Below are positions 10,126-58,254 of a DNA stretch of 63,596 nt, piece after piece. Numbering within the stretch: the stretch's first letter is position 1; each line of letters begins with the position of its first letter. The DNA is from a virus: the IMG/VR virus record IMGVR_UViG_3300031758_000068, positions 1 to 63,596 of that record. One strand, given 5' to 3'. The notes beneath the pieces were generated by a model. That model ran no database searches, was not told where the DNA came from, and saw only the letters and a program-made list of their open reading frames with translations. Both the position numbers and the translations under genes were made by a program.

Positions 10126-10135
10126 TATATTTATA
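10126..10135 (+). promoter_or_regulatory. Putative phage promoter box TATATTTATA
   Basis: This AT-rich box lies 14 nt before the ATG at 10150, in one of the few real gaps of the rightward block. The same decamer occurs at 39008 and with one change (TATATTTACA) at 16023, each just ahead of a large gene. It resembles the Bacteroidota TAnnTTTG box but ends in A rather than G, so it could be served by the phage polymerase or a modified host enzyme. Confidence 0.45.
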
Positions 10136-10149
10136 TTATAGCGTATATT

Positions 10150-25000: not shown

Positions 25001-25880
25001 TGATGACATGAGTCTTCTTGAAAGTAACAAGCCTTTCTCAGTTAAGCTTTACAAGAATCAGGAACTGCAACAACTAGATGAGAATGGAGAAGTAGTAAAT
25101 ACTACTGCTGAGGAACTAATTGGTAAAATCATTCCTAGAAAAGATGGTAAGTCTGGAGCTTCAGGTCCAATAAGACCAGATGAAGATTCAACTGAGGATG
25201 AAGCAGGACCAACAGGTGGAACTAATGCTCCTAACCCTACAGTTAATAAAGGAGCAAGACAAGATCAAGTAGATACTTACAATGATCTTAAAGAGCGTAT
25301 CATGATGGCTAATCTTGATGAACTTGATGAATTAAATACTGAACTGTTTGCAGCTAAAGTAAGTAGTGGTATCACTGATGAGCAATACAAAGATCTTGTT
25401 AATTTACTTGAAGAAGCAGAAACTGAATTAAGTATTGGAGAAATTGAGTCAGTTTCAATAAATAATGTTAAATTAAATAGTAAGCTAATTGCCATGGATG
25501 AGTTCACGACAACAACGCAAAAAGGCAAGACTACTATTATAAGCATTATTGGGGCTAATGAGAAAGTTGTGGTTGCTGAAATACTTAAAGACTCAATTAA
25601 AGTAAGAACACAAGATGGCAACCTGGTAGAGGTACCAGCTAACAAGATAAGTGATATCTTTGTTGATGCAGCCAAATATGAAGACGAACCAGGAGGACCT
25701 ATGGATACACCGTATAAACCAACCAAAGAAGAATCAATTGTCATTACTCAGACAAATGATAATGTGGCAACGTTTTTAGATGATAATGATGCTAAAACTG
25801 AAGCAGTTCAGAAAGGTCAATCTATGAATCCAAAAGATGCCCTTAATGACTTGAATAAAATTATAAATTGCCCGGGATAA
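19029..25880 (+). CDS. 2283-aa virion cargo-type protein with C-terminal PD-(D/E)XK nuclease domain
   Basis: The N-terminal about 600 residues include hydrophobic, membrane-like stretches (about 210-265 and 560-580), compatible with an ejected protein. Long charged coiled-coil regions follow (about 600-1350), with further unrecognised domains to about 1750. Near the C-terminus lies a RecB-type nuclease fold: a helix with AAEQSYEASKK, then GEIDLLI (D1898), HIIDLKTG (D1912, K1914) and a QQMSY motif fitting QxxxY. The D-x13-DxK spacing and QxxxY box are typical of the RecB/Cas4-like group of PD-(D/E)XK enzymes. A nuclease in a virion protein could act on host DNA at entry or trim phage DNA. The stop overlaps the next start (TAATG), implying translational coupling to the polymerase gene. 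Confidence 0.92.
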   Translation: MADNTPGFNSLDPLGPEYGKINQPIIDPKGLSPFEGDRMRDAPINFPAMPGLDLSLPNRNVRQNAVGAPGKPANANKQATAQDVINAQGSLIKAIGQASQSKDSYAKIYSYNAGPDGNAFYKRYQAYGQEKFDEIGFSPLRDNEANFNARTTRWDDFSRMMTHSFFPLLASGFTSGPRSLFRMLQGDFTGADLEDARLYEEAAAIGQSSKGGVFGFVNNTVMNFGYTVGIISEVILEEMGAALLAPGTGGTSFAAATIRNLERIKGVGTAIKGFKAMRNSLSELKGIQAVRNFKNSVNAGLTSKVGRFLNPLENTFEALQLAKADNLTGLAATFKTAGGLYRDIRTVNMAVSEARLEAGMVENSVYDDLYNEHYNLTGEAPDNKTQQDMQRQAKDASGNTFYWNAGLIYATNKITFNNITGPRGGIRKFIKSVQDDFVSVGGGKFGNVGKIVYDNVAKKFAYEATNLKNLAKSWWKNPGFKTAAGTIGYFKANISEGLQENMQEIISRTNEGYYKDSFNSKARRAQEYARGAALYAGKTQSDYFKKEIGEEFSMKGLETFGSGFFMGMLAAPLNNSIPFLSKQWNRMFDQKGYTDYVEKKEKMAEGIVEVLNNIDMKDFIKSNMFNLSAQDFISEIKARASKKEGMDAELEGLIDSVEMMLQTNTTDVFTDHLNSFFDLSEDEFMEAMGNIEKSEIPEYKTRITKSIDKIKSIKKKYDYYKQKKPNPVTDAYLSTLDKDSEEYEEAVSLQAGWDRAVKNAVFFNEAYEDTMQRMVDIQSEFLSKTTLKNMGAREMGLIFQPQKIKNEIELLKNDIEVAEQAKSTLPGAAEDLAKKKRMLAQMEDYAEKFKAFDIFYNRADYYSAHRDEVKKQLGIDLTDEEVEAIFNEQLGTLDGTESQAKVLGELKESLANYLKTVADINEDTVFDENIDQGFTLLTDHYKLYRESLAMVEAINTLHDPGNFNDLARRNQAWMKDLYNRRAEYYEKIVKGEMEDVEFNALLNKLADSGIAVTPEDFVEWKNNRTIPKEFIDIANKRIIPQNSEKYAAAVDLFERATALRDDTTVVSTEIQDAEYKRQLAALEADMQAEIDALPKVEERLVTGNIEPTAKSKSFTLNKVRKELAIGEQAELVDSKGERIIVRKDENEQLVDEAGELVDNNKRYVAGEKFRMSMVADEAAVKEIEDRYTEKRIALKEKFLAAQENVEKPPVVEEMTIADIMTKEPELYQQLLTAYEAMMVEDMGVDDFATLSDSQRENGLAKFIKSAKGKLIVDAYQEKQKISKSAQTEANEMTFTLDGTSYDTSTITSVPQLRNFIKQFNAKIATIKKKKIQDSADTEAILDLQSMINGMNLLIDKRLQSGATDELKAAIAKIKVMQLNQKDIVKQDLKSITIPEDDRAWKKGDIRYTKQGIRVEYKGDNLYNIAGEDRVFDTSTPNASSFQRSIDTAIYTANPQEVPNVYMIKGTEHERVSYAIKSVYDVFGLNENDLAILNTAFDVTIGIKGFNEESIKAFVDDLRATKESDNGKLGGFSTYTFDEIEGDLLGFYDSMTIMGGAPTTAPTPEADPKRADVEARLRKIAVGLKEEEIQQVLDIPIEKIITEVKNRANNNPNTLVGSLVVYYALRLEAEMAAIRIPVGEKTKLVEVVKVIDKLTPSADSDIEAKKVEIERRRQEELATAKIEIPRYFRFSELGGGKGKSGEALSSVEADKNREIQENFEKQLQEGDKLIEPNGDTYYFRNGKTVKRNGQPRGMADIGAFLTGVTIDRTDKINAKYDAQLDALEATTQTTTTPGSVDIEEIRKLALNTAAEQSYEASKKVGNYTDKQSKRIFDGEAPEFDEERITKEAYDELFDPKTGYLTQLKERADKGEFFIATDIVVYGEVVDANGKTRRIAGEIDLLIADRDGKIHIIDLKTGTYSKWQFYNNKGTIGYNKRIENTLQQMSYSNLVFNQYGLETNIGILPIEAKYDPDSADGKIMKAGRPTTKKLFEDDDMSLLESNKPFSVKLYKNQELQQLDENGEVVNTTAEELIGKIIPRKDGKSGASGPIRPDEDSTEDEAGPTGGTNAPNPTVNKGARQDQVDTYNDLKERIMMANLDELDELNTELFAAKVSSGITDEQYKDLVNLLEEAETELSIGEIESVSINNVKLNSKLIAMDEFTTTTQKGKTTIISIIGANEKVVVAEILKDSIKVRTQDGNLVEVPANKISDIFVDAAKYEDEPGGPMDTPYKPTKEESIVITQTNDNVATFLDDNDAKTEAVQKGQSMNPKDALNDLNKIINCPG

Positions 25881-28800
25881 TGATAACTTGTATTCTTTTA
25901 GACAATGAAATTTCAATGCTTTACACAGCTGTAACAGCATTTGTTGAAGACCGTGTAAAAAATGATAAGCCTCTAGATGCAGAGGACATCATGAAGCAAA
26001 TCTATAATAAGATTGCTAAGAGCCATAGTCCTGAAAAAGCTGCTGAGTTTGTACAACATGTTCCGCGGATTATTATTGACTTGTTAAATACGGCTTACCA
26101 AGGTAAGGTTAACATATCTCCACAAGCTTTTGGTGAACTATGGGGAGCTTCTACAGCATTCTATGCAGAAGATGGTATAAACACAATCATCCAACGCTTT
26201 AAGCCTAAGAGAAAAAGTAAGGCAGATAGTACAGCTGAAAAGAAAACAAGAAAGCGTAGCAATCCAAATAAGAAGACTAAGGATAATCTTGAGGAAAAAG
26301 AAGAGCCTGTAGAAGAGCCAACAGAAAAAAGATACAAGTCTTTCAGTGCTTTGAAGGGAACCATTCAGGAGTACCTTAAAAGAAACCCAACTACAAAAAG
26401 AATTCTTGTACCAGAAAAGGTTGACTCAAATAGAGTAGTCATGCAGACTACATTGAAGAGACTAGCTAGTACGTTTGATATTGATGATGATGGGCTAGCT
26501 GCAATCAAATATCAGAATGAGTTTCTTAAGCTTAAGGCTATCCGTTTAGATAAATTTGCTAAAGAATTCCCTAATCAGATTGATGCAACTACAATGCAAG
26601 AGATCACAAGATCTGAGGGAATGGTTAACAAAGGTGTAGCAAGTGCTGATGTAGCTCAAACAGCTGACAGAGTTGTTATTGTAGTAACTGACGGTAAAGG
26701 GAATGTTTTATTCTTTAATGAAGATGGGAACATTGTTTCTGAGAAAGAAGGGAAACCGGTGTATCAGTTCATGTATGATGTTAGAAAGTCAGGAGATAGA
26801 CTTGTAGTAACTGATATCTATGGTAAAGAAGAGAAGATAGCAACTCCTGAACTTATTGCTGAGAAGACATACAACAAAGAAACAGACGGTCCGCTTAAAG
26901 AGTATATTGAAAAAATACGCAAGGCACAGCAGGAAGAGTTTCAGAGACTATATGACTTGAAGAAGTCTGTTATTTCTGGTAAGGATCAAGAGCTCATCTT
27001 TGATGGAGTTAGTGAAGGTTTGACATCAGATATAAACAATGTCTACATTCCCTTAAATCAATTAAGATCTCTTGGTGTTGATAGAAAAGTCTTTAAAACA
27101 ATTGAGACTTTGAAGACACCGGAGGGTGGTCTATCTAAAGGTATGGCTGTTATTGAGTTTAACGGAACTAAGTTTGAACTAGATAGAAGTGATCTTTCTT
27201 CAGATATAGTAAATCAAATTGCTGAAGTTCTTACAAATAAGAACATCCCTTTTAGAAAGAGATTGGACTTTGCACAGCAGTTCTTGAGTAATGACATTAA
27301 TCCAACAGCAAGAAGACATACATTAATCTATGATGTTGATAAGAAGATTCTAAACTTATCAGTGTATCAGTATACTACACAGGAGTCTTGGGAATTTGTA
27401 AAAGAAACTACTGATCCTGTAAGTGAAAAGACTATCAAAGAGTTTGAAGCAAAGAGAACTCCTTTGAACAACCAGAGATATAAATTCTACTATATTGCAC
27501 CAGGTACTGTAATTAATGGTAAAGAATACAAACAAGGTACTTATAGATTGTTTGAGTTTAATGACTCTAAAGGAAGAGGTCAGAATACAACTCTATATCT
27601 TTCTGATGATGCTTTGGCAAAGGCAACTCCAGAAGTTCTTGCTAATGTAAAAGCCGGTATTATAGATGCTTTAGAGAGAGGTTATTATCAGCCTAAGTTT
27701 GAAAGGTTTATGCCTACTAAACTGAACTATGCAGAACATCTATTAGATTCCGGTCAGTATGAGGTATATGATGCTGCTACAGGTAAGTTTCAAAAGAAAG
27801 ACTACATTGACTTCTTGATGAACTTGGAATCTACAGTAAGTGTTAAGACCAAAGATCCAGGTTTCTATAATGCATACATGTCTTTCACTATTCCAAGTGA
27901 TGCTAATCTAGAGAGACAAGAAACTGAGGAAGAAATACCAAGTGTTTTTGTACCGCTTAATCCTTTTGAATCTGGTGTTGAAGAAACTGATTTAAATAAG
28001 TTAGCACACAGTATCTATAAGCAACTAGAAACTTATGGTCAGACTAGTGAATGGATTGACTATCTAGAAGATCAAGGTATAGTAAGTAACTCTGCTAACA
28101 CTGGTTTCTATGTAGCTAATCTCCTTAGACAGCAGTTTGAAAAGAATGCACAGAATGCATATACCAAAGAGTTGGCTAATGCTATTACTGATGTATTCAT
28201 TGCATCTAGAATTGGTACTGAGAAACAAAGAGCTTTTATCAATAAAGGAATTGAAGGCTTGCCTTCACAACCATTTACACCGCCTGCTTCTTCAATGGCT
28301 AGTATAATTGAACAAGCAACTGTACCAGAAGCACCAAATCCTACTAACACTAATACTAATGCTGCAAAGGAAACAGAAACAGATTCTGGTTATGACTTTG
28401 ATGAATTAGAAAGAGGTGAGGGTCTTTCAGGTAAAACTACTAGAGCACAGAGAAGAAAAGCTAACAAATGGTGGAATACCTCTGAGACAGGTAAGAAGTT
28501 TCAAGAAGTCATTGAGCTTTCACACTTGGCTAACCTTGTTAACTCAAATGCATTTGCAGAGTTTACAGTAGCCGGAGCAACACTTATTGATAACAGCAAG
28601 TTGGGTCAGATCAAAATCAACCCTCTTAAAGGTTCCATGGTAGACGTATACCATGAGGCTTTCCACGTCTTTACACAGTTATTCCTTACTAAAGCAGAGA
28701 AGATTGTACTTTACAAAAAGGTTAAAGAGTATACTGATGCTAATGGTAATCAGCCATACAAAAACATGACCTACTTTCAGATTGAGGAAATGTTGGCGGA

Positions 28801-31800
28801 AGACTTTAGAACCTATGCTAAAGACAAGACTCTAAAAGACAATATCCCGGTTAAAAATACTATCTTCAGAAGAATGCTGAAGTTCCTTCAGGCTATGTTC
28901 TCTAAGATAAAAGGGCTATTGCCTATCTCTAAACAAGATGTTGTTGTAGATAGCTCTAGTATACCTGCAATAAATGAGTTGTTTGAGAACCTATACTACA
29001 ATAAGAATAACTTCCTGAATAACTATCAACCACTGATCAAGAACATTAGATTTAATGTACTTAATAGAGGTATTACTAAGGTTAATAATTCTAGAGAAGA
29101 TGCATTAAGTACTACTGATTCTGATTTGATGGTAGCAACCATGGACTCTATTATCTCAGAAGAGATTGATAGATTGCATGATGACAGAAAAGACCAGGGA
29201 GTCACAAAGAGTCTTAAGGCTGGTGTAATCAACTTGCTTACAAGTGATAAAAACAGAACTGTTCTCTATAAGAATATCAAGAAGAGACTTACTGAAGATC
29301 TTGAAAGAGAGAAAGCTAAGTTGTTCTTACAACCAAATGTCAAAAAATTTAGTGAGTTTACATCACTAGAAGACATCAAAGAGAATGCTGTAGGTGTAAT
29401 GAAGAACGCTAAGGGAGAAGATAAGTATATCTTCCTTAGATCTCAGATTGATGACTTCAGTGAGCTATCTGCAGATATCAAGAAGGGTGCACGCGTAAAA
29501 GGAGAAAAGTACTTTGATATTCCTATTGTTGCTGACTTCTATGTACACAAGACTCTTAAATCTGGTAAGAAGACAGTAGACATCATGGTAGTATCACAGC
29601 TATCTGATGCTCAAGTACAGTATGAGAATTACGTTAAAGGTGGTGCTAAGGCATTCACTGAACCTGTAATGAAAGAGGGTGTGGAGGATTCAGTACTTAC
29701 ACAAGAGCAGGAACTTGTTCTTGACAACGTAAGAATCCTTCAGGCAACACTTGACAACTTTGGGGACCCTGAGTATTGGAAAGATGGTAGAATACCAGCA
29801 GGTGTAATTAAATATCACTTAGAGAAGAGTAGATTTACTTTACTTAGAAAGTCTTATGTGGACATGGAGTATGATCCAGACAACGACTATGAGAGTGATG
29901 ACTATGAGGATGAAGAGAATGAAGATGGTATCCCTACAAATGAAGAAGCTGAATTAGAAGCTAAGAACAAAGAGCTTACTAATGACAGTAAAGTAGGTAA
30001 GTACTCATTACAGCAGCTAGCTGATAACAGTACTTTGTATATCTTGAGTAGCTTATTCTATGTTGATGCCAATGGTAACAATGAGCTAGACCGCTTTGGT
30101 CACAAGAAACTAAGCAACTTCAAAGACACATGGAACATAGTTGCTAAGTCTATTGCTGGTATGCAAGATGCGGAGTTAATGTATAGTACTCTTAATAAAC
30201 TTAAGAATACGTATCCTATACTCAGACAACTTGTAGAGAAGAAGCTGCCTAATCCTAAATATGATCCTGAGAGAGGTATGGCTATCACAAATTCATTTGA
30301 GGTAGATAACATTGTTGGGTTCTGGCAAACATTCAGAAGACCAAAGGTTCCGTACATTCAGTTGATGTATTTCCCTATTGTTGAAACTCAGACGGATTAT
30401 CTTACAGGTAATATAGAATTTGTAACAGTAGGTTATGATTCTGAAATGCGTTATGCTTCTGTAGATGGAAACACAATCATCAAGAGATTCCAAAATGAAT
30501 TTGCTTCATCACCGGAAACTGAGTTTATTTCTAAGGTAAACAATACTTCAATTCTAAACTTAGATGCAGCAATAAGCAAGTTCAGTACAAAAGATGGTAA
30601 CTTAAATACAGATAAAGCAATTGAGTTTGCTAGAGCTATCGGTATTTACTTAGATAACACTGACGCTCTTGAGAAAACTATCAATGACAATATGAATGAA
30701 TATGGTATACCTTACTTATTCAATATTGCAAAAGACATCAAGAACCTACAGGACAAACTTAAAGAGCCAAATAATAATCTAAGCACTGAAGCAATCAACT
30801 TAGTTAATGATTTCAAGAAAGATCCTATTGGTATATTGAAAGGAAAGATCCGTGCTACTTTAGTACCTAGTGTTAAAGCTAAGAAAGGTGTTGTTGAGCA
30901 AAAAAATATCATTGTAAAACTTGCTGAGCTTAATGCTAAGTTGGGTTATGAGACAATGAACTTTGGTATTAAGAATGCAAACGGAGATACTGTGTATGAG
31001 AACATAGATATCAACAGTTTGTATATGCAAGTTAACGGGCTCAACACAATGGAGAGTCTTGACGAAGCCTGGACAAAACCAGAGTATTCTTACATGAGCT
31101 ATCTTGATCCTACTAGAAATGCGTATACTCAAAGGTCTATATTGCTAAACAGTATGTTTAACATTGAGACCTTTATGTATGACCGTAGAGGTGAGAGAAC
31201 TATTGAGCTTGCAATGGATGATGGAACCCGTATACCTGGTAAGAACCTAGGTAACACAACAGGTACTCTTACTCCTATGGGTAAATTCAATCAGGAACTT
31301 ACTCTAATGCTCAAGTCTGGTGCTAATAACATGTTCCAGAATGCGGATAAGCAGACAACCCCTATTATCAGATTACTAGGTGGTATCATAGGTGAGAAGA
31401 GTGAGAGAGGTTTAGATGATCACTTGTATGTGGATACTAATATGTTTGCTCCGCAAGCAGGACCAGGAGCTACAGCAGGTGAACTATATGCTGTTAATAG
31501 AGTTCTTATTCAAAACTTAGCTACAGAGTTTGACAGAATTGTCATGGTTAAGGAGAACCGTGATGAGGTAGCTAAGATTAAAGGACCAAATCAAACAGTA
31601 GACTATGATAAAGATGGTAAGCCACTAATGGCTGCTGAAGTATTTGTAGCGTTTGATGATGTTCTTGGTAAAGATACTAAAGAAGCATTGTATGAATTAG
31701 CAGAAGACTGGGATGGTGATATAGTAGAATACTTACACAGCCCAGAGAATGCTAACTTATGGAATACAATTCAAAATGATATAATAAAGTACTTTAGAGC

Positions 31801-34800
31801 AGAAGTTGCTTTAAATATGAGTTTGTTTGAAGACTTCTCATATGACAAAGTACTTGTTGAAAAGACGGGTATCCCTGAAGTTCCTGCTGATACTATTGAT
31901 AAAGCAGCTGCTGAGTTAGAAAGAAAAGGTGCAATCAGAAAAACACTGATGACATCCTTTACGTACAATTCTTGGATACACAACTTTGAGATTATCCATC
32001 TATTCTTTGGAGATATCTCTCAGTTTAATCACTTGAAAGAAGAGCTTCAAAAAAGAAATGCTGGTAATACATCAGGTGGTCTTGGTTTCATGAACAGTCC
32101 ATTCTTTAACAACTTCATTAATAATGTATTTAATGCTGCACAAAAGAATGCAAAGACTGGTGACATTGTAGGTCCAACAACATATGCACAAGCACTTAAT
32201 GTAAGAGACAATGCTCAGGATACTGATAAGGACTATGATAACTTTGTGTACAACGGTAGATTAAATACTGGAGTTATTGCAGATGCTGAAAGAGAATCAG
32301 TGTATATCAAGGAGATGTCTGAGTCTTGGCGTGAGATGTATGAAGAGGATTACAAAGAAGCTATTCCAAATGAAGCAGAAAGAAAAGCTTTCATTGATAA
32401 GCTTATTGAGTATGACGTAGATCCATACATGAAAATGACTGAGTCAGATGGTGCCGGTTACATTACAATTGATGCTTACAGAACTCTTAAGAAAGCATCT
32501 AAGCAATGGACATATGAGCAAGAACAGCTTTATAAAAAACTGGTTGCTGGTGAAAAGCTAACTCCAAAAGAAGTTAAAGAGTTCTTCCCGCCATACAAGT
32601 TGCAATACTATGGTCCACTACATGAGACTGTAATATCTGTTGTAGGTATGCATAAGTTTGCACTTACACCACTTGTGCCGGGTGCACTTGGTGGTGCTCA
32701 ATTGCAAAAGCTTCATGAGGAGATGCTCAGAAGTAACAGACAGTATGTATTGTTTGGTTCTGGTTCTAAGGTGTCTACAGTAACTCTAGATGGTAACTTT
32801 GATGATGTCTTCTTGAATGACAAACAAAAAGCTATCAAGACAGGTGATGATTTCCAAACAGCAAACAACATAATCTATGTTGAGTATCTTAAGGATGTAA
32901 CATCAGTTAATAGCACATTTAAGAAAAAGGTAACCGCAGGTACCCAACAAAGAGTAATGTTTGTTGACAACTTCTTTAAGGATGGTCAGATTGTTAACCC
33001 AGAGGAAAACAAAGAACTTGTTGAAGGATATGTCCAGAATAGCAGAAACATTACCAATGTTCTTATAGCAGAGCTTCTAAATGAAATTGGCTTTGTTTAT
33101 AAAGACGGAATGTACCAAGCATCCGGTAACAGTGTTGAGAAGTTTGTAAATACTATTAAGAAAGGACTTGGTAAAAAGGCTGTACCTAAACACCTTATTG
33201 ATTTAGTTGGTGTGAATGTAGGTGGTCAAGCAACAATGGATTACTCATTACATCCTATTGCAGATGACATTGAAGCTTTAGCTACTGCACTGATTCAAAA
33301 GAGAATCATTAGACAGAAAGCAAAAGGAGAACCTCTTATTCAGGTACCGTCAACTTTGTACAATGGTCTATGGGATACAGACTTTGAACTCATCACTGAT
33401 GAGAAAGAGATTGAAAAACTATTAGGTTCAAACAACTTACCTTTCTATAGAAGAGGTAAGAAAGATCCTAAGACTGGCAAGTATGGTCCATCATCTATGA
33501 TGAAGGTTGCTATTACTATGCAAGCTGACTTTGAGAACCTATATCAGCGTCTAGACCTTAATGGTAAAAAGATAGCAGAAAGCCCTGATCCATTAGCTTT
33601 GTTAAACAAGTTAATCCAGAATGATGAATGGTTAGACAAAGATGACAACAGGTTTGCAATTAGTGTTACAGGACCACGTATCCCTACAGATGGTATCAAC
33701 CTTGTGGAAGGTGCTGAGGTATGGCACTTCTTTGAACCTCAAATGGGTAATATAGTTGTAGTACCTACTGAGATTGTAGCCAAGACCGGTGGTGACTTTG
33801 ACGTTGATAAGTTGAACTTTGAATATGCATATATTGATGGAGATGGTTTCTCATTAAGCAAGCCATTGAGCAATGCTGAATTCAAAGCTAAACTTACAGA
33901 AGCAACTGAGAAGATTGCACAGAGAGCTGAAGATAGAAAAAAAGGTAAGAAGAAAGCAAAAGGTGAAGAAGAAGAGGTAATTATTACACCTTCTGCAATT
34001 ATTAATGCTCAGAAAAAAGCATTACATAATCAGTCTATACAACTCCGTTTAGATATCTTGCGTTTGCCAGACACTTTTGCTAACTTAACAAAGCCTAACA
34101 GTACATACCTTGTTGAACAGTATGCTGAACTAGTTGCTGCTGCACAGCCTTACAAAAAACTAGATAACAGAACAATCAAAGGCTATAAGTTTGATCCAAA
34201 GAATAAAGATAAGGCTGTAATGAGTTCTACTAGAACTCTAGAGATTGGATACAACATGCATAAGTTTGAGGTAAACTTATCTAGCGGTCAGCTTACTTTG
34301 GGTATTACAGCTAAGCAAAATAAACAGCATGTAATAGACAATGAGATTGGTGCTAAGATGCCAGACTCATACTATGAGACAGTGTGGAAAGATGGTAAGT
34401 ATGTTCCTACAAAGAGAAGATATCTAGTAGACTTACACTTTAATCATAACACTACTACAAATAAAGCAGGTAAAGAGGTAATCTCATTGGCTGGATTGCA
34501 AACAAGAAAGGGTACTAGAATTACATCTATTAACTCTCACAACTTGAACGGTATCTTAGACCGTGCTAAGAAGTCATTCCCGGGTGAACTAAACATGGTA
34601 CCTGAGACTATGCCAATCATCAATCACTTAATTGAAGCTGGTGTAGATGAGGAACAAGCATTATACTTTGTGAACTTACCATTGATTAAAAAATATGTAA
34701 AATTACAGAGAGAGTTTGCGGATGTCTATGGGAAGATTAGAATGGTGGCACCGGATAATTCTTCAATGAATAAGTTTCAAGCTGCTGAAAAAACTGTAGC

Positions 34801-37800
34801 TGAATATGAGGCTAGTGGTGCAAAAGAATACAGACTTGTAAATGATATACGTCTGCAAGCTACAATTGACAGATTGATGGTTACTCTTAATGAACTTAAT
34901 CCGACTACACAAATAAGTGTATACTTTGGACAAAAGGTAGGATACGTACAAATGCCAGCTTCTCAATTGAAGAAAGGTCTTCAGTCAGGTGATGTACCAC
35001 CATTTGTTGTGAGAGGTATTAATCTATATGATGAAAAATTAGCATTCCCTTTACAAAAACAATTGTATAAACCTTCTTCATCAATAGTATCTACTGCTAA
35101 TTACTACTATGCAAAAAGAATTGCTTTTGATAAAGTATTTGGTTCTCAAGAAGCTGTATTTAATACTAATTTGATTACAGATTCTATTACTAAGAATGAT
35201 ACAACTAGCCGTTTAGCATTAGCGTTTTTATTACACTATATTCAGATTGAGCATCAACTTAAAGGTATGCAAGAAGCTGCCGCATTGATGTCACCTGATA
35301 CTAGTTTTGTGAAGACTATTCAGCAAGTAAGAAACAGACAACAGCGTATTGCAGATCTTAAGAAGTCTGGTAAGATTGATGATAGCTTGATGGATGACTT
35401 TGAGAAAAAGTCTATTCTAGGTAGCTTCCGTATTGATCAGTTGATGATGGATACAATTGAACCACTATTCCCATTAAGATTGGACCGTGATATCTCTGAG
35501 TATATTGAAGATGCAACAAACAGATTTAGCAATACTATTGCTGCTAGATTTGGTCAGGGTATTGAAGGTAAAGAAAGATTCAGTTCTATGTTTAACAATG
35601 CTGTAGTAACATCATTGTTCCAAAACACACTATCTAACTTCCCTAATGCAAAAATAATAGATGAAGACTTGATGCTACCTGAAGGTTACAAAGGGTATAA
35701 GATATCTATTAATGATAAGCAAGCTGAAGCTGTTAAGATTGAGAATGGTGTAATATCTATAAACATAGAACTTACTAAGTCTGACTTTGCTGATGGTATG
35801 TATCTAGATAATGTAAACAAGCCAGAGTCATATCTTGGAAGAGGACTGTTTGCATTTGATGCTGAAAGAGATCCATTTGTGAGAGTAATTCCAAAAGACA
35901 AAGGTGGTCTTCTTGCTGGTACATCTTTCAGATACTTCAGTAACTATGTACTATTTACTGTACAAAGAGAGCTACTCAGAACCAATAATCCTATTGAGAA
36001 AGTAAGAGAGGAATACATGTTCCAGGATCTTATGTCTCAGTTTAATTTGGATGAGCCGGCAGCCTATGAAATGTATTTGGTTAAAAGAGCTCTTAGAAAC
36101 TCATTCAACCCAGGATATGTCATGGGCTTGTCACAATTCAATTACACTGATGATGTGATGCGTTTGCTTAATCAGTTCCCTGTATTAAAACAAAAATTTG
36201 GAATAGCCTCACAACTAGCTCCTGAGTCAAGAACTAAAACAGACAAGAACATCATTGTATTGAATGACTCAAAGGCAACTGGTGATGTTGCTGATGGTTA
36301 CCATAATGATCTTGTACAGTTAGGTGATATTACTATCCGTAAGGGAAGTGATGCAGAGAATAAATACATCTCTGATACCTTTAAGTTCTTCTCAGAAATG
36401 ATGTACTACCAACATGGTATTGGATATAGCTCATTTGGTTTTGTTAAAGTATATGACTCAGCCGGTTATATCACTCTAATGAGAACTGTAGGTATTAACT
36501 ACTTGCAAAATCCTATTGATGAAAATCAATTGGAGGGTATAACAATCAACCTATTGGACAACAGTGACATCTTTAAGAACTATGTTGTTACATCTGGCTT
36601 CAAGAGAATGGTTACTGATACTGCTTTTGAGGAGTATGATGAGGAAGATATGCTCAATGAGCTAGAGCAGATGAATAGAAAGGCTAAGAATCCTCTTGTT
36701 GCAGAAGTTATAGAAGCAATTAATGCTGTAGAAACTACTAATCCATTTAGAGCTAAAGACATTGAGATGTTCAAAGATGCTGATGCATTCATTGGTTTTG
36801 AAACAACTCTTAATGACCCTAGACTAGATGCTAAGTCTTCTACTAAAGTTTACAGACAAGCATTTGGTAACTTGGCTAACAAAGGTAAGTATACGCCTGA
36901 TGAAGTTGTGGCACTGTCTGGTTCTGGTAACTTTAATAGAGGTGGTGTAGATCTTACTACAGCTATTCAAGAAGACTTCAAGAACAAATACAAACCTGAA
37001 ATACTCAGAGCTATAGATAGCGGTGTATCTACTTTCCTACTAGGAAGCTACAATGACCAGAGAAATCTACAGGATTACTACATTCAGAAGTACTTGGAGT
37101 CTAAGGGTTACACAGCATCTACAGTAGTAGTTGGTAAATATGAGTACTATAAGTTTACTAAAGAAGGTGCTGTTGCTAGTGGAGATATTGAAAGTTTGAA
37201 GAAAGCAGCTGATGCTCTTCCTTCTATTGAGCAAAACTTTGCAGATGGTACAGGAGGTAGAACTATGGAGCCGCAGTTCAAAGGTAAATCTACTATGGAC
37301 TTAATACTCTCTGGTGATAGAACAAGAACTACACGTGCTAAAACAGATATCTCTAGAATGATTAAAGACTATGGTCTTACTAAGATAGAAGACTTGGTTG
37401 GTATGGTTATCCGCATGACTGACAAAAAAGGAAATTTGGCTTACACTAGAATTACTAAAGTAGCTCCATTTACTCAAGAGTATCAAGATGCAACATGGCA
37501 AAAAGAAGGTTGGACAAAAGATGTTACAGATAAAAATGTAGGTAATTATCCATATGCTATAGAATTTGAACTTGTTAAAGAACCTGTTGTAAACAGACCA
37601 GCTTCAAGTGAAGCAGATGTAATATTGCCTATTGGAACAAGTGGTAGCGGAAAGTCTACATTTATTAGCTCTCTTCCTCAAGAGAACTTGGTTGTCATCT
37701 CCCCTGATGAAATGAGAATTGAGTTTACAGGAGATATAGATAATAAGTCTAAAGACAAAGAAATTTATACTGAAGCTGCTAAACGTGCCATTAGTGCAAT

Positions 37801-39007
37801 AAAACAAGGTAAACAAGTTGTATTTGATACTACTAATCTTACAAAAGATAAGAGAAGAACATTTATTGAAGCTATCAGAAAAGAAATACCTAATGCTAAT
37901 ATTCAGTATAAGCTTATGGCTTTGGATCCTGAATTAGCAAAACAAAGGATTAAAGCTGATATTGCTGCAGGTAAGAATAGAGCTAATGTTTCAGATGAAA
38001 CTATTGATAGACATGCTGCTTCTTACGCGCAAATGTTGGAAGACATTAAGTCTGAGGGTATGACTGAGTATGTTTCTAATGTTAAACCTACAGTAGATGT
38101 TATAGAATTAGAACCAGGTCTTGATTATATGCCAAAAGCTTTAACTGTAGAGGAACAAAAACAGTTCTTTGAGTTTGGTAAAGATGTACTTGAGAAAAAT
38201 GGTTATAATCCTTTCCCTGCTTATGTGATGGCTTCTGCTGGACAAATGGAATGGAGTCCTTTATTTGTAGTGGATAAAGAAGGTAAAGGTGTAGATAGAA
38301 ATGGTCCTTATAATGAGTCTATTATATCAATCAAGAAAAGTCTTGGTGGTCAAGATAGTAAAGATAAGAGATGGAACTACAATTATTACTTAAGTAACTT
38401 TGATGGTACGCCTATCATGCCTATTCCCTATAATATCATTAGCATATTGGAAAAGATTACAGGTCAGGATATGTCAGATTATGATACAGTACTTATTAAC
38501 TTGTACCCTATTGGTAGAACACTAGGTTGGCATCAAGATACTACTGAAGACTATAGAACTTTAGATAGAGATATTATCTCCGTATCCATTGGTGCTAATG
38601 CAGACTTTACTTATAATAATGCTAAAGGAATTGTATATGCGCCTAAACCTGGTACAAAAACATCAGGAACACAAACATTGTCAAGCGGTGATGTGATGGT
38701 ATTTGGTGGTGAATCAAGACTAGTTCAACATACTGTAACTAATGTACAAGGAACAACTAATTTAGGCCAGATTAATCTTAACAATTCTAATGTCAACAAA
38801 TACTTTAACGGAGGTTTGATGTTAGATAACTGGAGAATGAACTTTACCTTTAGAGTAGCCGCTGCAGAAAATAATAATGGTAAGAGATCTCTTGAAGAAG
38901 TGCAACAAGCGCCTGTAGCACCGGGAACACAGCTTACATTATTTGATGAAAACGCGCCTGAAGGACTACCTCCGTCTAAAAGATCTAGTAAAAAGTGTAA
39001 TAATTAG
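25880..39007 (+). CDS. 4375-aa virion RNA polymerase polyprotein with ASCH, polynucleotide kinase and AlkB-like domains
   Basis: The start is taken at the ATG overlapping the previous stop (TAATG) rather than the TTG at 25868. HEAFH (H925-H929) with a downstream AEDF glutamate suggests a zinc metallopeptidase. The RNA polymerase core is marked by RIPTDG, IVVVPTEIVAKTGGDFDVDK and the metal-binding D2639-F-D2641-V-D2643, matching the DxDxD signature of the double-psi beta-barrel polymerases of crAss-like phages (phi14:2 gp66 type). The C-terminus adds an ASCH-like domain (about 3800-3910, MDLILSGDRTRTTR), a polynucleotide-kinase P-loop GTSGSGKST (3919-3927) with FDTTN, and an AlkB-like Fe(II)/2-oxoglutarate dioxygenase with H4218-x-D4220, H4284 and RMNFTFR (4319-4325). 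By family it should be packaged and injected to transcribe early genes. The repair tail is the unusual part. Confidence 0.93.
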   Translation: MITCILLDNEISMLYTAVTAFVEDRVKNDKPLDAEDIMKQIYNKIAKSHSPEKAAEFVQHVPRIIIDLLNTAYQGKVNISPQAFGELWGASTAFYAEDGINTIIQRFKPKRKSKADSTAEKKTRKRSNPNKKTKDNLEEKEEPVEEPTEKRYKSFSALKGTIQEYLKRNPTTKRILVPEKVDSNRVVMQTTLKRLASTFDIDDDGLAAIKYQNEFLKLKAIRLDKFAKEFPNQIDATTMQEITRSEGMVNKGVASADVAQTADRVVIVVTDGKGNVLFFNEDGNIVSEKEGKPVYQFMYDVRKSGDRLVVTDIYGKEEKIATPELIAEKTYNKETDGPLKEYIEKIRKAQQEEFQRLYDLKKSVISGKDQELIFDGVSEGLTSDINNVYIPLNQLRSLGVDRKVFKTIETLKTPEGGLSKGMAVIEFNGTKFELDRSDLSSDIVNQIAEVLTNKNIPFRKRLDFAQQFLSNDINPTARRHTLIYDVDKKILNLSVYQYTTQESWEFVKETTDPVSEKTIKEFEAKRTPLNNQRYKFYYIAPGTVINGKEYKQGTYRLFEFNDSKGRGQNTTLYLSDDALAKATPEVLANVKAGIIDALERGYYQPKFERFMPTKLNYAEHLLDSGQYEVYDAATGKFQKKDYIDFLMNLESTVSVKTKDPGFYNAYMSFTIPSDANLERQETEEEIPSVFVPLNPFESGVEETDLNKLAHSIYKQLETYGQTSEWIDYLEDQGIVSNSANTGFYVANLLRQQFEKNAQNAYTKELANAITDVFIASRIGTEKQRAFINKGIEGLPSQPFTPPASSMASIIEQATVPEAPNPTNTNTNAAKETETDSGYDFDELERGEGLSGKTTRAQRRKANKWWNTSETGKKFQEVIELSHLANLVNSNAFAEFTVAGATLIDNSKLGQIKINPLKGSMVDVYHEAFHVFTQLFLTKAEKIVLYKKVKEYTDANGNQPYKNMTYFQIEEMLAEDFRTYAKDKTLKDNIPVKNTIFRRMLKFLQAMFSKIKGLLPISKQDVVVDSSSIPAINELFENLYYNKNNFLNNYQPLIKNIRFNVLNRGITKVNNSREDALSTTDSDLMVATMDSIISEEIDRLHDDRKDQGVTKSLKAGVINLLTSDKNRTVLYKNIKKRLTEDLEREKAKLFLQPNVKKFSEFTSLEDIKENAVGVMKNAKGEDKYIFLRSQIDDFSELSADIKKGARVKGEKYFDIPIVADFYVHKTLKSGKKTVDIMVVSQLSDAQVQYENYVKGGAKAFTEPVMKEGVEDSVLTQEQELVLDNVRILQATLDNFGDPEYWKDGRIPAGVIKYHLEKSRFTLLRKSYVDMEYDPDNDYESDDYEDEENEDGIPTNEEAELEAKNKELTNDSKVGKYSLQQLADNSTLYILSSLFYVDANGNNELDRFGHKKLSNFKDTWNIVAKSIAGMQDAELMYSTLNKLKNTYPILRQLVEKKLPNPKYDPERGMAITNSFEVDNIVGFWQTFRRPKVPYIQLMYFPIVETQTDYLTGNIEFVTVGYDSEMRYASVDGNTIIKRFQNEFASSPETEFISKVNNTSILNLDAAISKFSTKDGNLNTDKAIEFARAIGIYLDNTDALEKTINDNMNEYGIPYLFNIAKDIKNLQDKLKEPNNNLSTEAINLVNDFKKDPIGILKGKIRATLVPSVKAKKGVVEQKNIIVKLAELNAKLGYETMNFGIKNANGDTVYENIDINSLYMQVNGLNTMESLDEAWTKPEYSYMSYLDPTRNAYTQRSILLNSMFNIETFMYDRRGERTIELAMDDGTRIPGKNLGNTTGTLTPMGKFNQELTLMLKSGANNMFQNADKQTTPIIRLLGGIIGEKSERGLDDHLYVDTNMFAPQAGPGATAGELYAVNRVLIQNLATEFDRIVMVKENRDEVAKIKGPNQTVDYDKDGKPLMAAEVFVAFDDVLGKDTKEALYELAEDWDGDIVEYLHSPENANLWNTIQNDIIKYFRAEVALNMSLFEDFSYDKVLVEKTGIPEVPADTIDKAAAELERKGAIRKTLMTSFTYNSWIHNFEIIHLFFGDISQFNHLKEELQKRNAGNTSGGLGFMNSPFFNNFINNVFNAAQKNAKTGDIVGPTTYAQALNVRDNAQDTDKDYDNFVYNGRLNTGVIADAERESVYIKEMSESWREMYEEDYKEAIPNEAERKAFIDKLIEYDVDPYMKMTESDGAGYITIDAYRTLKKASKQWTYEQEQLYKKLVAGEKLTPKEVKEFFPPYKLQYYGPLHETVISVVGMHKFALTPLVPGALGGAQLQKLHEEMLRSNRQYVLFGSGSKVSTVTLDGNFDDVFLNDKQKAIKTGDDFQTANNIIYVEYLKDVTSVNSTFKKKVTAGTQQRVMFVDNFFKDGQIVNPEENKELVEGYVQNSRNITNVLIAELLNEIGFVYKDGMYQASGNSVEKFVNTIKKGLGKKAVPKHLIDLVGVNVGGQATMDYSLHPIADDIEALATALIQKRIIRQKAKGEPLIQVPSTLYNGLWDTDFELITDEKEIEKLLGSNNLPFYRRGKKDPKTGKYGPSSMMKVAITMQADFENLYQRLDLNGKKIAESPDPLALLNKLIQNDEWLDKDDNRFAISVTGPRIPTDGINLVEGAEVWHFFEPQMGNIVVVPTEIVAKTGGDFDVDKLNFEYAYIDGDGFSLSKPLSNAEFKAKLTEATEKIAQRAEDRKKGKKKAKGEEEEVIITPSAIINAQKKALHNQSIQLRLDILRLPDTFANLTKPNSTYLVEQYAELVAAAQPYKKLDNRTIKGYKFDPKNKDKAVMSSTRTLEIGYNMHKFEVNLSSGQLTLGITAKQNKQHVIDNEIGAKMPDSYYETVWKDGKYVPTKRRYLVDLHFNHNTTTNKAGKEVISLAGLQTRKGTRITSINSHNLNGILDRAKKSFPGELNMVPETMPIINHLIEAGVDEEQALYFVNLPLIKKYVKLQREFADVYGKIRMVAPDNSSMNKFQAAEKTVAEYEASGAKEYRLVNDIRLQATIDRLMVTLNELNPTTQISVYFGQKVGYVQMPASQLKKGLQSGDVPPFVVRGINLYDEKLAFPLQKQLYKPSSSIVSTANYYYAKRIAFDKVFGSQEAVFNTNLITDSITKNDTTSRLALAFLLHYIQIEHQLKGMQEAAALMSPDTSFVKTIQQVRNRQQRIADLKKSGKIDDSLMDDFEKKSILGSFRIDQLMMDTIEPLFPLRLDRDISEYIEDATNRFSNTIAARFGQGIEGKERFSSMFNNAVVTSLFQNTLSNFPNAKIIDEDLMLPEGYKGYKISINDKQAEAVKIENGVISINIELTKSDFADGMYLDNVNKPESYLGRGLFAFDAERDPFVRVIPKDKGGLLAGTSFRYFSNYVLFTVQRELLRTNNPIEKVREEYMFQDLMSQFNLDEPAAYEMYLVKRALRNSFNPGYVMGLSQFNYTDDVMRLLNQFPVLKQKFGIASQLAPESRTKTDKNIIVLNDSKATGDVADGYHNDLVQLGDITIRKGSDAENKYISDTFKFFSEMMYYQHGIGYSSFGFVKVYDSAGYITLMRTVGINYLQNPIDENQLEGITINLLDNSDIFKNYVVTSGFKRMVTDTAFEEYDEEDMLNELEQMNRKAKNPLVAEVIEAINAVETTNPFRAKDIEMFKDADAFIGFETTLNDPRLDAKSSTKVYRQAFGNLANKGKYTPDEVVALSGSGNFNRGGVDLTTAIQEDFKNKYKPEILRAIDSGVSTFLLGSYNDQRNLQDYYIQKYLESKGYTASTVVVGKYEYYKFTKEGAVASGDIESLKKAADALPSIEQNFADGTGGRTMEPQFKGKSTMDLILSGDRTRTTRAKTDISRMIKDYGLTKIEDLVGMVIRMTDKKGNLAYTRITKVAPFTQEYQDATWQKEGWTKDVTDKNVGNYPYAIEFELVKEPVVNRPASSEADVILPIGTSGSGKSTFISSLPQENLVVISPDEMRIEFTGDIDNKSKDKEIYTEAAKRAISAIKQGKQVVFDTTNLTKDKRRTFIEAIRKEIPNANIQYKLMALDPELAKQRIKADIAAGKNRANVSDETIDRHAASYAQMLEDIKSEGMTEYVSNVKPTVDVIELEPGLDYMPKALTVEEQKQFFEFGKDVLEKNGYNPFPAYVMASAGQMEWSPLFVVDKEGKGVDRNGPYNESIISIKKSLGGQDSKDKRWNYNYYLSNFDGTPIMPIPYNIISILEKITGQDMSDYDTVLINLYPIGRTLGWHQDTTEDYRTLDRDIISVSIGANADFTYNNAKGIVYAPKPGTKTSGTQTLSSGDVMVFGGESRLVQHTVTNVQGTTNLGQINLNNSNVNKYFNGGLMLDNWRMNFTFRVAAAENNNGKRSLEEVQQAPVAPGTQLTLFDENAPEGLPPSKRSSKKCNN

Positions 39008-39033: not shown

Positions 39034-42000
39034 ATGCCTTGTAGAATTAAGATAAAGGAGAACCTTGAAGGAGAAGTATATGACTTGGCAAGACCAGGTA
39101 CATATGGTACTGCTAAACAAGCAAGGGATCTAGCTGTGCGCATTAATCAAATGTACAATGACAGTGTTGTAAGATTTACAAGATCTGAAGCTGACATACT
39201 TAATATTGATGTCACAATTCCAGACTCTTTAATTGATAGATACTTTGCTAATGAGTTAAGACTTGAAGAAGAGGAGGCAAGACATGCTCTAAGAGCGGAT
39301 GCTGTAAGAGCAGGAGTTGATTATTCAGATGATTACCTAAAGCAGAATGAAGTAGATGACTATGACTTAGATATTGCTAAGCAGTTTGAACTTTCTGTAA
39401 AGGGTTCTCAAAGAGCAAGAGCTAATGAGATTGCTTTCAAGTTAGGTGAGAAGTTTAGAGTAGCCTTTGACATGGAGTATCAGCAAGTATCAGCTGACTA
39501 TGCTTATGAGTTACTTAAGGATACTAAGACACCGTATAACGGTGAACCGGCATTCTACTTTAACAACATAGTGTACTTTGTAGATGATAACTTTAATGTT
39601 GAGAACCTATTTCACGAGTACTCTCACCCTTTCTTACAAGCAATAAGAAGAGATAACCCTGTTTTATTTGAGAAGTTGTTTGCCCAGTTGTCTGCTACAT
39701 TTGCAGGTGACCGTATTATTGCTGACTTAGTAAATGAGCAGAAACAAAAGGTAGAGTCTAAGAGACTTACCGGTGATAGACTAAAAGAAGAAGCTCTTGT
39801 CCGTGCCATGGAGTACAGTGCCATGAAGAAGATTGACAAGGTTACTGAATCAGACAGTGCGTTCAAAGCATTTATGACTAATCTTCTATATGCTATCAAA
39901 AAGATTATCCAAAAGCTTGTAGGTAGAACAGACTTAAGCAAGTTGAGTGCTAATACAACTTTGGATGAGCTTGTTGACATGATGTTGACTAAAGAGTTCA
40001 AGATTGAAACCCAGGCGCTGAAGAATTCTGATGTGGCTGAGTTTGCTAGAAACGCTAAGACAGACATAGAAAAGCTAGTAGAAGAATTAAAAAATACTGA
40101 TGCTCAAGATTTCATTGACACCTTTAATAAGTTCTATACAGGGATTGACTATCAGCTAAAGCAGTTAGAGAAAACACCAAAGGATGTACAGAGAATGCTG
40201 CAGAAAGGTCAAGAGGATGGAAGCATTGATGGTAGAAGACTGTTGCGCAATGTAAAAAACTACATGAGCAAAGGTCAGACTGTATATACTAACCTTTCTG
40301 ATATTAATCCTGAAGATTTAATTGAAGCAATTAGAGCTCAAGAAAAAGAGTTCAACAAGCGCGCAATCAACATGATCAAGAGTATCAATGAGATTGAAGT
40401 ATTTGCCCGCAGGATTCAGACTATAGTAAAAGACATGCGTACCAAGAAGATACATCTTAAACCGGATGGTATGGCTGTGGTAGATTACTATATCTCATTC
40501 ATGGAAGAACAGCAACGTTTTATTGATGACATTCTAAAAACACTTAAGCTAGATGAGGAAACTTTATTTACTAAGAAGCTATTATCTATTGAGCGTGTAA
40601 TTAAGAACTCTTTGGGTGATGCATCTAAGTTGAGATTTGACGGAATGGTTAACTGGTTTACTGAAAACGCTGACTTAGTGAATGAATCTATTCAAGGTAA
40701 GCTTGAGACTAAGTTGATGTTGATACTGTCTCCGCAAGGTTTTACTGAACAAGAAATAACAGACTATATTACTAAGCTAAAAACAAGAGGTAACTTAGAT
40801 AAGTTTTCAAAAGCAGATATTGATTTAGGAAGACCTGTAACAAGTGACACATACATAGCAGAAGCAGTAAGAAACTTTGGAAAGAAATATATTACCGCAG
40901 AGAGTATTGCTAGAATGCTTAAGGGAGAAGGTGGTGATATAAATACTATTAGTGCTAACATCTTGTCCTATACAAATATCAATGACCAAATGGGTATTTT
41001 CTATAGAGAGATGAAGAATGAGTTGTCTAATGCTGCAGCTAAGTCTCATGAACAGGAAATAGAATTGATAAAGGCTATTCTTCCTCATCTTAATGCTCTA
41101 GGGTATAACCCTAATAAAACCCACATGCTTGCAGACTTGATGACATTTGTTGATACTATTGCTGTTGTAGAAGACGGTGAATTAAAACGGATGCAAATTA
41201 GATCTGTGCTAGATAAATTTATTAATTGGCGTGCGGATAAGGGGGAACTGGAATATGCTTTGGAAGAAGCTAGAGAAAAGAAGGATAGAGCTGCAATTAA
41301 GAAAGCCATGCAGGATCTATGGAACTTCCATAATACTTACATGAATAGACAATACAAGGATGAAGTCTATAATGTTCAGAATATATGGAGACAAACCAAT
41401 ACTGTATATGACCCTGTGACTAAGACTGATTTAGTAGTGTCCGCAGATGAATCTACAGAGGCATATCTTGAAAGACAAGAGGCACTTGACCAAATGAGTC
41501 TCTATAGTTCTACAAGTGTGTTTACTGAATTGGATGACCTCTATGAAGAACCAGAATCTAAAGAAGCGCGCAGAGAGTATCAGCAGTTATATGAAGTCTA
41601 TGATTCTTTTGGTGTACCAAAGTCTGAAGAGGAAAGAAAAAAAGTTCTAGTACGTCAGTTGTACAGAAAAGAATCTAAGAAGTTCTATGAGCCAAAGGTT
41701 AACTATGACCAGTTCCAGAGAGACTTTGACAACTTTGTACTTACAGAACTTGCATCTGAGGGTATTGATATGGATGATGTGGACTTTGACAAGTACATTC
41801 AAAAGTTCATTGACAAGAATACACGTTTGGCTTATTCTGATAAGTACTATGAAGACCTTGAGAAGATCTTTGATACTATTAGAACTCTTACAGAAAAGGC
41901 TAAAAACAATACTGTATCTCTACAACTTGCAACTCTGTATAAGCAAAGAGCTATTCTAGTTAATGTGGTTACAGATAAGAACGGTACTCCTGATGGTATT

Positions 42001-49415: not shown

Positions 49416-50435
49416 CTACAATTTTACATTACCAATAGCTAACTCATATGGTAAAGTATAATCTCTGTTCTCATAATGATAATTCAACACATTAAGTAGA
49501 CCAGAGAAATCCTCCATCCATATTGCTAGCGTTTCATCTGAAACCTGGAATGGATAAACCTGATTATACTTATCTATTACAATAAATGTAAACACAATTT
49601 TCCATTCATTAGCATCCTCTTTTTGTTTGATTAGATTGTTGAACCCCATGATACAATAGATTGCCGCCTGAACATCATAGCGGTAGAACTCTACAGTACT
49701 AGGGAAGCTTTGAATGGATTTGTTGGTTGTCTTAAGGTCATTGATAAAGATAGTCTTGGTGTTTTCATCCACCACTATGTTATCAGCAAAACCTTTCAGA
49801 CCAAACTTGAAATCAATGAGTTCTGTTTTGAGTGATACTTCATTGTAAACAGTTACGCCATTAGAGTTATCATGACCTAATTGTAGAAGCCCCATTACCC
49901 TGTCATCTGCTTTGAGGCTAATTAATGATTCTTCTGCCTTTGACTTTACAGAAGCATCAATAACTGTCTTTGATTCTTTGATTTTTAGAAATGTGAAATA
50001 CTCTTTGTTGTTATCTGTAAGTATCTTGTCAAGTCTCTGCGTATCCGTCTTGAGTGATTGGTAGAGATTATTTACGAGTAACTGATTGAGTATATCTGTA
50101 GGGAAGTCTTCCAAAGTTAATGTTTCATTTTGTAATGGCAAGTAATTGTGATAGAAAATATGTTCTAAAATTGTCTTGTTGCTATCTGTGGGAATCTTCC
50201 CCGGTAGCATTACAAACTGATCATCAAATTTATCTGGTTCCAGTAACAGACAGTGCAGAGCCCTACCTGCAATGAGGTGGGCATCTGTACTATCTTCTTT
50301 CTGGTTGAGAATGTAATGGTTGTAGAACCATCTTGGGGATTGTAAAAGCTTATTTATTCCTGAGTAGCTAAAATAAAACTTCTCATTATAGAACCGGGTT
50401 AAGTCCGAGTTCAGGGAGTCCAGGCTCAATGACAT
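49416..50435 (-). CDS. PD-(D/E)XK exonuclease (RecB/Cas4-like)
   Basis: 339 aa. FYFSYSGINKLLQSPRWFY near the N-terminus is typical of phage RecB-type exonucleases. Motifs follow in order: GRALH (H61) with E66, GFAD (D218), INDLKTT (D233, K235) and QAAIY (Q256, Y260). This is the H-D-DxK-QxxxY set of the RecB-like PD-(D/E)XK family. It probably resects DNA ends for recombination together with the RecA-fold ATPase at 57529. The start overlaps the upstream gene by about 50 nt; no later Met precedes the conserved SYSG region, so the overlap seems real. It is the second such nuclease here, the other being inside the 2283-aa virion protein. Confidence 0.9.
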   Translation of the reverse strand: MSLSLDSLNSDLTRFYNEKFYFSYSGINKLLQSPRWFYNHYILNQKEDSTDAHLIAGRALHCLLLEPDKFDDQFVMLPGKIPTDSNKTILEHIFYHNYLPLQNETLTLEDFPTDILNQLLVNNLYQSLKTDTQRLDKILTDNNKEYFTFLKIKESKTVIDASVKSKAEESLISLKADDRVMGLLQLGHDNSNGVTVYNEVSLKTELIDFKFGLKGFADNIVVDENTKTIFINDLKTTNKSIQSFPSTVEFYRYDVQAAIYCIMGFNNLIKQKEDANEWKIVFTFIVIDKYNQVYPFQVSDETLAIWMEDFSGLLNVLNYHYENRDYTLPYELAIGNVKL

Positions 50436-57528: not shown

Positions 57529-58254
57529 TTATTTGTGTAAAAATACTTTGTCCCACGTTGTATGCAAGACATTGTCAATCATTTCTGTAATTACTATCTC
57601 TTCATTTCTGAGATGTTCTGGTCTTGCACCGCAAGTCACTTCATCATTGGTCTTGAATGATAGAATGGTCTTATTACCTTTTCTATACATGTAACCAATA
57701 GCATCCGCCTGTGCACAAATCAGGGACTTAATCTTACCTGTCAAATCAATATTGGCAGACATAACTAACTCACCTTTATCATCCACTTGTTTGTCTTTGA
57801 TGTGACCTGACAAGATAATTGTTGGTGCTAAGCCATCAATAAAGTCCAAGACTTGGAAAAATGCCTGGCGAATATATAAATATCCTGCACCATTTGGCAA
57901 ATTGATTACAGTATCTCCGTCAAAGTTCTTACCCATAGGCGTCTGCTTATAGAGTTTGATAGCCAATGGCATAATCATTTCCTCTAATGCAGTTACAGTA
58001 TCTATGGTAACATAATCATACGGTTTTCCTGCCTCCTTGATAGCCTTACCGGCATCTAAGAGCTCTTGTAAATTACTGATCTTGACTTTCATAGCTTCAA
58101 CATAATCAGTTCCGTTTTCCAAATCAAGAATGAGATTATTCTCAAGACCAGCATACGCTGTGGTTTTACCGGTCTTTGGTTTAGAATAGATAACTATTCT
58201 CTTGGGGTTTACTCTCTCCCCTTTAACTTTTGCAGTTGGCAATATTATTCCCAT
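57529..58254 (-). CDS. RecA-fold NTPase, Sak4-like recombination ATPase
   Basis: 241 aa. Walker A YSKPKTGKTT (K30, T31), then LILDLENGTDY and YDYVTIDTVTALEEM (Walker B Asp). IILSGHIKDKQ follows where the RecA-like sensor lies. This is the AAA_24/Sak4 type found in many phages, which promotes single-strand annealing with an SSB partner; the next gene downstream is the putative SSB. It starts 3 nt after the gene upstream ends. Confidence 0.88.
   Translation of the reverse strand: MGIILPTAKVKGERVNPKRIVIYSKPKTGKTTAYAGLENNLILDLENGTDYVEAMKVKISNLQELLDAGKAIKEAGKPYDYVTIDTVTALEEMIMPLAIKLYKQTPMGKNFDGDTVINLPNGAGYLYIRQAFFQVLDFIDGLAPTIILSGHIKDKQVDDKGELVMSANIDLTGKIKSLICAQADAIGYMYRKGNKTILSFKTNDEVTCGARPEHLRNEEIVITEMIDNVLHTTWDKVFLHK

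Follow-up and report, generated by a model that had tools for sequence, protein, structure and literature searches.

Why does the predicted RNA polymerase of a crAss-like phage continue, in the same reading frame, into a kinase and a dioxygenase? The stretch of DNA analyzed here (the window: all 63,596 nucleotides of IMG/VR virus record IMGVR_UViG_3300031758_000068) was read in an initial annotation as encoding a virion RNA polymerase fused to an ASCH-like domain, a polynucleotide kinase and an AlkB-like dioxygenase, which would repair nucleic acids in the first minutes of infection. Is this tail a fixed repair device, or one assembly among many from a stock of exchangeable parts? The features on which the argument turns are:

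25868..39007, +: giant ORF of 4,379 aa, a single open frame
28418..29317, +: zincin-like metallopeptidase region, with a HEAFH motif at ~28652
29708..36667, +: crAss-type RNA polymerase region, with catalytic DFDVDK at 33794-33811 and tblastn matches to crAss-like phage RNA polymerases
36668..37237, +: module that looks SLOG/Rossmann-like by eye, no Pfam match
37229..37591, +: ASCH-like module, a conserved domain mobile among polyproteins; its ASCH fold is tentative
37607..38071, +: Pnkp-type P-loop kinase module, mobile, at many positions in relatives
38120..38887, +: AlkB-like 2OG-Fe(II) dioxygenase module, with HQD, QH and RMNFTFR
38915..39004, +: conserved C-terminal peptide GTQLTLFDENAPEGLPPSKRSSKK, common to the window and a sibling phage (L032)

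The fusion of polymerase and tail is real. No internal stop interrupts 25868-39007 on the plus strand, giving one 4,379-codon frame with the order zincin, crAss-type RNA polymerase, Pfam-negative module, ASCH-like module, Pnkp-type kinase and AlkB; an identical second IMG/VR contig (L001) has the same domain arrangement. The likely start codon, an ATG at 25880, overlaps the stop of the preceding ORF. A search of phage records for near DNA matches to the giant ORF gave none, and PADLOC found no matches in the tail. Two other large frames lie in the window: ORF 39034-44967 (1,977 aa), in which a zincin-like HEYSH motif and LysM domain (6e-7) occur, and the giant ORF 19029-25880, whose aa 1829-1924 match a PDDEXK nuclease domain (Pfam 3.8e-5). 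The latter also contains short DNA islands (24005-24059 and 24337-24383, 83-87% identity), encoding the linker-like peptides IERRRQEEL and INAKYDAQLDALE, that are matched in L012 and in L017, in the latter directly ahead of its kinase. A 263-bp repeat (1528-1790 and 4881-5143, 67% identical) is shared by two different giant ORFs of the window. Frames of relatives can be longer still: L026 (record G018) has a 7,432-codon single open frame with RNA polymerase, kinase, ART-PolyVal and an ASCH-like region.

The zincin region is homologous to regions adjoining the RNA polymerase in many relatives. With the polymerase region as tblastn query, 62 phage records were matched, and 15 of 15 among the matches listed are crAss-like (best match 3e-23; crAss001 3e-5). 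The combination of a DxDxD loop, here DFDVDK at aa 2643 of the giant ORF, with this sequence similarity places the predicted polymerase among the crAss-like RNA polymerases. A zincin motif, an RNA polymerase, a kinase and an AlkB, unrelated in their biochemistry, thus share one frame, as in a polyvalent protein.

The two enzymes proposed for the tail were correctly recognized. The kinase, with its P-loop GTSGSGKST at 37634, matches Pfam AAA_33 at aa 3918-4054 (E 3.8e-16) and the PHROG polynucleotide kinase family (2.6e-11). The P-loop, catalytic Asp and Arg are invariant in a 10-sequence kinase alignment and kept in aligned intact copies; loss of catalytic residues in relatives, which the annotation had named as a ground for rejecting its reading, was not seen. 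The best PDB profile matches are the Pnkp kinases of Clostridium thermocellum and Capnocytophaga, and the module also resembles the kinase domain of T4 Pnk. P-loop, Asp general base, Arg and DTTN motif all align with Pnkp; bacterial Pnkp, however, has a phosphatase and a ligase attached, whereas the window kinase is without both and sits in a predicted virion polyprotein. Pfam found no 3' phosphatase domain in the tail. As far as sequence can decide, the kinase assignment is firm, and the enzyme probably acts on 5'-OH ends of RNA or DNA.

The same holds for AlkB, which matches Pfam 2OG-FeII_Oxy_2 at aa 4167-4329 (E 2.5e-21) and, among PDB sequences, 5xeg (1e-7) and E. coli AlkB (~6e-5). The full motif set, HxD...H plus R-x-N-x-T-x-R, which AlkB/ALKBH dioxygenases share with the window module for binding metal and 2-oxoglutarate, is present: HQD at 38531, a second metal His in VQHTV (by eye) and RMNFTFR at 38834. 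This assignment too is firm on sequence, and the enzyme probably strips alkyl marks from nucleic acid. Unlike known AlkB/ALKBH proteins, AlkB is here built into a giant phage ORF, in 5/5 of the records in which it was found; these are 5 of 35 records tested, so that mobility of AlkB rests on few loci.

The remaining modules are less readily named. The ASCH-like module, as the annotation had it, is genuinely conserved as a domain (14 sequences with 32-81% identity to the window; pLDDT of the model 90.9), but its match to ASCH is neither found in Pfam, even at E<=1, nor significant as a fold. A PDB profile search for ASCH gave no match, and Foldseek with the model returned nothing significant; the highest TM scores among the matches listed (0.43-0.54) are to ASCH/PUA-like structures, the best being ZmASCH (0.54, E 0.2-0.9). 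An ASCH identity is plausible from this non-significant similarity of the modelled fold and a motif resemblance seen by eye. The annotation, with its list of ASCH-like, kinase and AlkB domains, passes over the module at 36668-37237, relatives of which occur in L007, L016 and L044 in other orders.

Are these modules inherited as a set? The annotation proposed looking for its domain order in other crAss-like phages; no fixed order exists there, L032, L042, L090 and L044 combining modules differently. In the sibling phage L032, whose next gene and DNA polymerase are 78% and 87% identical to those of the window in amino acids, the tail ends in the same C-terminal peptide and has a kinase (72% identical), with a different upstream module and a small different domain replacing AlkB. 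L042, with a polymerase 41-47% identical to that of the window, has NADAR, a SLOG-like module (by eye) and ART-PolyVal, then AlkB, and lacks both kinase and ASCH; L090 has polymerase, ASCH-like domain and a second type of AlkB, without kinase; L096 has ASCH-like, AlkB, NADAR and helicase; ART-PolyVal is found in L042 and L026. Because L032, L042, L090 and the kinase-bearing relatives carry different combinations, the predicted kinase, ASCH-like unit and AlkB are separable, and the order seen in the window is not that of a fixed repair fusion.

We found 17 loci with the ASCH-like module, placed either after the polymerase (C-terminal) or ahead of the zincin-polymerase (N-terminal). Polyproteins share it as DNA islands of ~115 bp (L102 pairs) to ~435 bp, 69-94% identical (for example 392 bp at 94% in L095/L097 and 423 bp at 93% in L089/L093); most of these pairs share little further DNA, and between some close relatives the alignment runs for many kilobases. 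L093, compared with its close kin L091, has an extra ~170-aa module after the ASCH-like domain, followed by the same end peptide in both.

The kinase is present in 24 viral contigs, one copy in each, and two copies look broken: those of L019 (~10076-10505) and L040 (10001-10371) are interrupted by stops or a frameshift and are possibly decaying. When IMG/VR was searched with the tail, 20 loci came back; the best match in them is usually the kinase (~67-84% identity), the polymerase parts being 20-40% identical or absent. An alignment search added kinase loci with identities down to 61%. Scored relative to the catalytic DFDxD motif of the polymerase, the kinase is downstream in the same ORF in the window, L002, L004, L012, L016, L026 and L036, downstream in another ORF in L014, L029, L034 and L035, upstream in another ORF in L005 and L019, upstream in the same ORF in L009, L010 and L013, and within the polymerase in L018. 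Three pairs of loci share DNA islands confined essentially to the kinase (L003/L005, 492 bp, 92.9%; L007/L029, 536 bp, 90.5%; L011/L014, 486 bp, 88%), outside which they have in common only pieces of <=50-60 bp that are the ends of ART-like domains. A pattern scan of bacterial and archaeal genomes for the kinase, which reaches close relatives only, gave no matches.

Some of these positions are inside other enzymes. At several loci the kinase was removed in silico from the query and the flanks were aligned across the join to uninterrupted proteins. In L015 it splits a zincin protease directly behind HEILGH (the HEILGHPIIRAIKN helix); this type of zincin is uninterrupted in 12 other contigs, and in 8 aligned there is a variable loop at the insertion site. 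In L018 it lies ~38 residues past DFDIDK of the polymerase, a site without insert in L016, L042, L002 and the window. In L009 and L013 it interrupts a domain that L035 has in one piece, and in L029 and L007 it is flanked by the opening and closing segments of a domain whose intact counterpart in L042 is Pfam ART-PolyVal (1.2e-5); on these alignments the kinase splits or replaces an ADP-ribosyltransferase (ART). The guest may itself be a host: the kinases of L017 and L018 both contain an ASCH-like domain, nested at the same place, and this composite is 74.7% identical in DNA over 873 bp in two unrelated settings. A DUF7831 domain (1.2e-27) also adjoins the kinase within the polymerase insertion of L018 (9815-11557).

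Kinase and ASCH-like module are thus in-frame DNA pieces of ~0.35-0.5 kb found in many places, both in linkers between domains and in loops inside enzymes, and copies of both have passed between phages recently and remain under purifying selection. Whether each is a sub-gene mobile unit in the strict sense, a single domain that jumps in frame into the interiors of enzymes such as RNA polymerase and protease, with guest and host kept functional and guests nesting in guests, is a proposition we would put at even chances.

Could the kinase instead be extremely conserved and vertically inherited, its varied positions reflecting ancient rearrangements? Purifying selection is indeed evident in the recent pairs compared (dN/dS 0.12-0.25), and the window kinase is near synonymous saturation against most others and of older divergence (dS ~1.2) from those of L002 or L013. 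The recent pairs, however, have dS of 0.09-0.49 with almost no further DNA homology, and the kinase tree conflicts with kinship of the phages. In the polymerase tree (15 rows, a motif filter having removed six sequences, of which one was restored), kinase-bearing phages are separated by several substitutions per site and L002, L004 and L035 form one clade (support 99/98); AU tests on the kinase tree reject both this grouping (p=3e-5) and that of the window with L032 (p=0.006), and the window kinase is less similar to that of its sibling L032 than to those of distant phages. For several pairs vertical inheritance is already contradicted, and as a general account it is very improbable. Slightly less probable again is that the variable positions are artifacts, chimeric metagenome assemblies joined at conserved kinase sequence. 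The related loci are without exception viral contigs from metagenomes, many of them incomplete, and no isolate phage record was found to have the module, which leaves room for such joins; but both flanks of the kinase in the L015 zincin, the L018 polymerase and the L009/L013 domain are halves of a domain uninterrupted elsewhere, identical contigs were recovered from separate datasets (L007/L008, L091/L092, L099/L101), and for most pairs identities of 61-93% are too low for assembler joins.

How might such exchange take place? The kinase unit has a left edge at about xVILPIG and a right edge at about MLEDIKSExITEY, beyond which the flanks diverge immediately. Further features of the window that bear on this are:

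37554..37571, +: left copy of an 18-nt direct repeat (89%) flanking the kinase; flank similarity above null
38097..38114, +: right copy, paired with 37554..37571
49416..50435, -: Exonuclease VIII-like protein (PHROG 2.2e-28), candidate shuffling machinery
57529..58254, -: Sak4-like single-strand annealing protein (PHROG 1.2e-30; AAA_24 7.4e-27), candidate shuffling machinery

In L036 the kinase is bracketed by two copies of a 42-nt linker repeat, and a third copy lies past the next module; direct repeats flanking the kinase in L016 and L002 are weaker. One possibility is that modules are exchanged at short or repeated linker sequences by single-strand-annealing recombination that the phages encode, and that selection would then retain inserts that are in frame and tolerated. 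Since flanking repeats exceed null in only 5 of 22 kinase contexts, annealing-type recombination is a best guess. At the aligned kinase junctions, inspection by eye showed neither a conserved DNA end nor inverted repeats nor a duplicated target. An intein was considered and rejected, the insert edges having (by eye) neither N-terminal Cys/Ser nor C-terminal His-Asn.

What the assembled protein does may follow from how it is delivered. In crAss001, gp47, gp49 and gp50 were found in the virion by mass spectrometry, as given in PMC10172136; since crAss-type RNA polymerase proteins are virion cargo there, early delivery is reasonable here as well, and by analogy the window polyprotein may be packaged, then injected together with the DNA. 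Each module would refold after injection and be active within the first minutes of infection; its most likely targets are host defences that work through nucleic-acid damage or ADP-ribose. Such a role is probable from the company that the domains keep (NADAR, ART, helicase, AlkB and Pnkp-type kinase). The explanation that we favor, and hold with reasonable confidence, is that the tail consists of interchangeable enzyme modules on a crAss-like virion RNA polymerase protein, forming a polyvalent protein with a recombining stock of early effectors, probably for counter-defence.

This keeps the early timing proposed by the annotation and gives up its dedicated end-healing and alkyl-repair tail, given separable modules and few ligases. 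Could a stable fusion of RNA polymerase and repair tail nevertheless be at work, with kinase healing ends and AlkB reversing alkylation of incoming DNA or cleaved RNA? The closest kinase profiles, those of the Clostridium thermocellum and Capnocytophaga Pnkp enzymes of bacterial RNA repair, the intact catalytic residues of AlkB and the plausibility of early delivery all speak for it, and yet the modules part company in L032, L042, L090, L044 and the remaining kinase contigs, and the tail has no detected 3' phosphatase domain. Classical RNA repair is further weakened because an RNA_ligase accompanies the kinase in 1 of 25 contigs, some possibly incomplete, RtcB in 0 of 25, and neither in the window; a fixed repair tail is on balance unlikely. 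The sole RNA_ligase-family protein among the 25 contigs is a 369-codon frame in L105 (the record of L017). We give a similarly low probability to the kinase being a zeta-toxin-like toxin or host-takeover enzyme that does not act on nucleic-acid ends: its Pfam Zeta_toxin score (4.4e-6) is far below that of AAA_33, and its top PDB profile matches are Pnkp kinases, while zeta-toxin-like kinases do occur in polyvalent proteins and MuF fusions in phages (Iyer 2017, PMC5512222).

The general idea of such proteins is known. Polyvalent proteins as set out by Iyer et al. (2017, PMC5512222) include an N4-like virion RNA polymerase fused to metallopeptidase and ART, and repeated domain accretion is argued for there; like the window protein they are giant and predicted to be injected, and join polymerase and zincin to unrelated effectors, and their ART-PolyVal recurs in L042 and L026. 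The window polymerase, in contrast to that N4-type example, is of the crAss two-barrel type; AlkB, ASCH and crAss are absent from the main text of PMC5512222, and the text available from it describes neither a recent movement of single domains at the DNA level nor their nesting within catalytic domains. CrAss-like phage transcription proteins (Yutin 2021, PMC7886860; crAss001 gp47/gp49/gp50, PMC10172136) are likewise large and multidomain with a DxDxD motif, and one has a PDDEXK domain, as does window ORF 19029-25880; the text available from these two papers makes no mention of plug-in kinase, ASCH, AlkB or NADAR modules. Because the first source covers the polyvalent idea and the text available from the crAss-like papers does not mention such modules, what appears unusual here is the recent, nested, in-frame mobility of domains.

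Insertion of a domain in mid-enzyme is usually known only as an ancient event; here it is a recent and recurring one that can be compared from site to site. Since uninterrupted homologues are available, the assembly of multi-enzyme phage effectors and the insertability of domains become directly testable. The modules also make up a repertoire of counter-defence candidates (Pnkp-type kinase, AlkB, NADAR, ART and ASCH-like) that crAss-like phages appear to trade among themselves and probably deliver with the genome. L016 and L096, finally, have RecD/UvrD-like SF1 helicase modules fused into their kinase- or ASCH-bearing polyproteins, and PADLOC matches to the candidate defence families PDC-M16A and PDC-S68.
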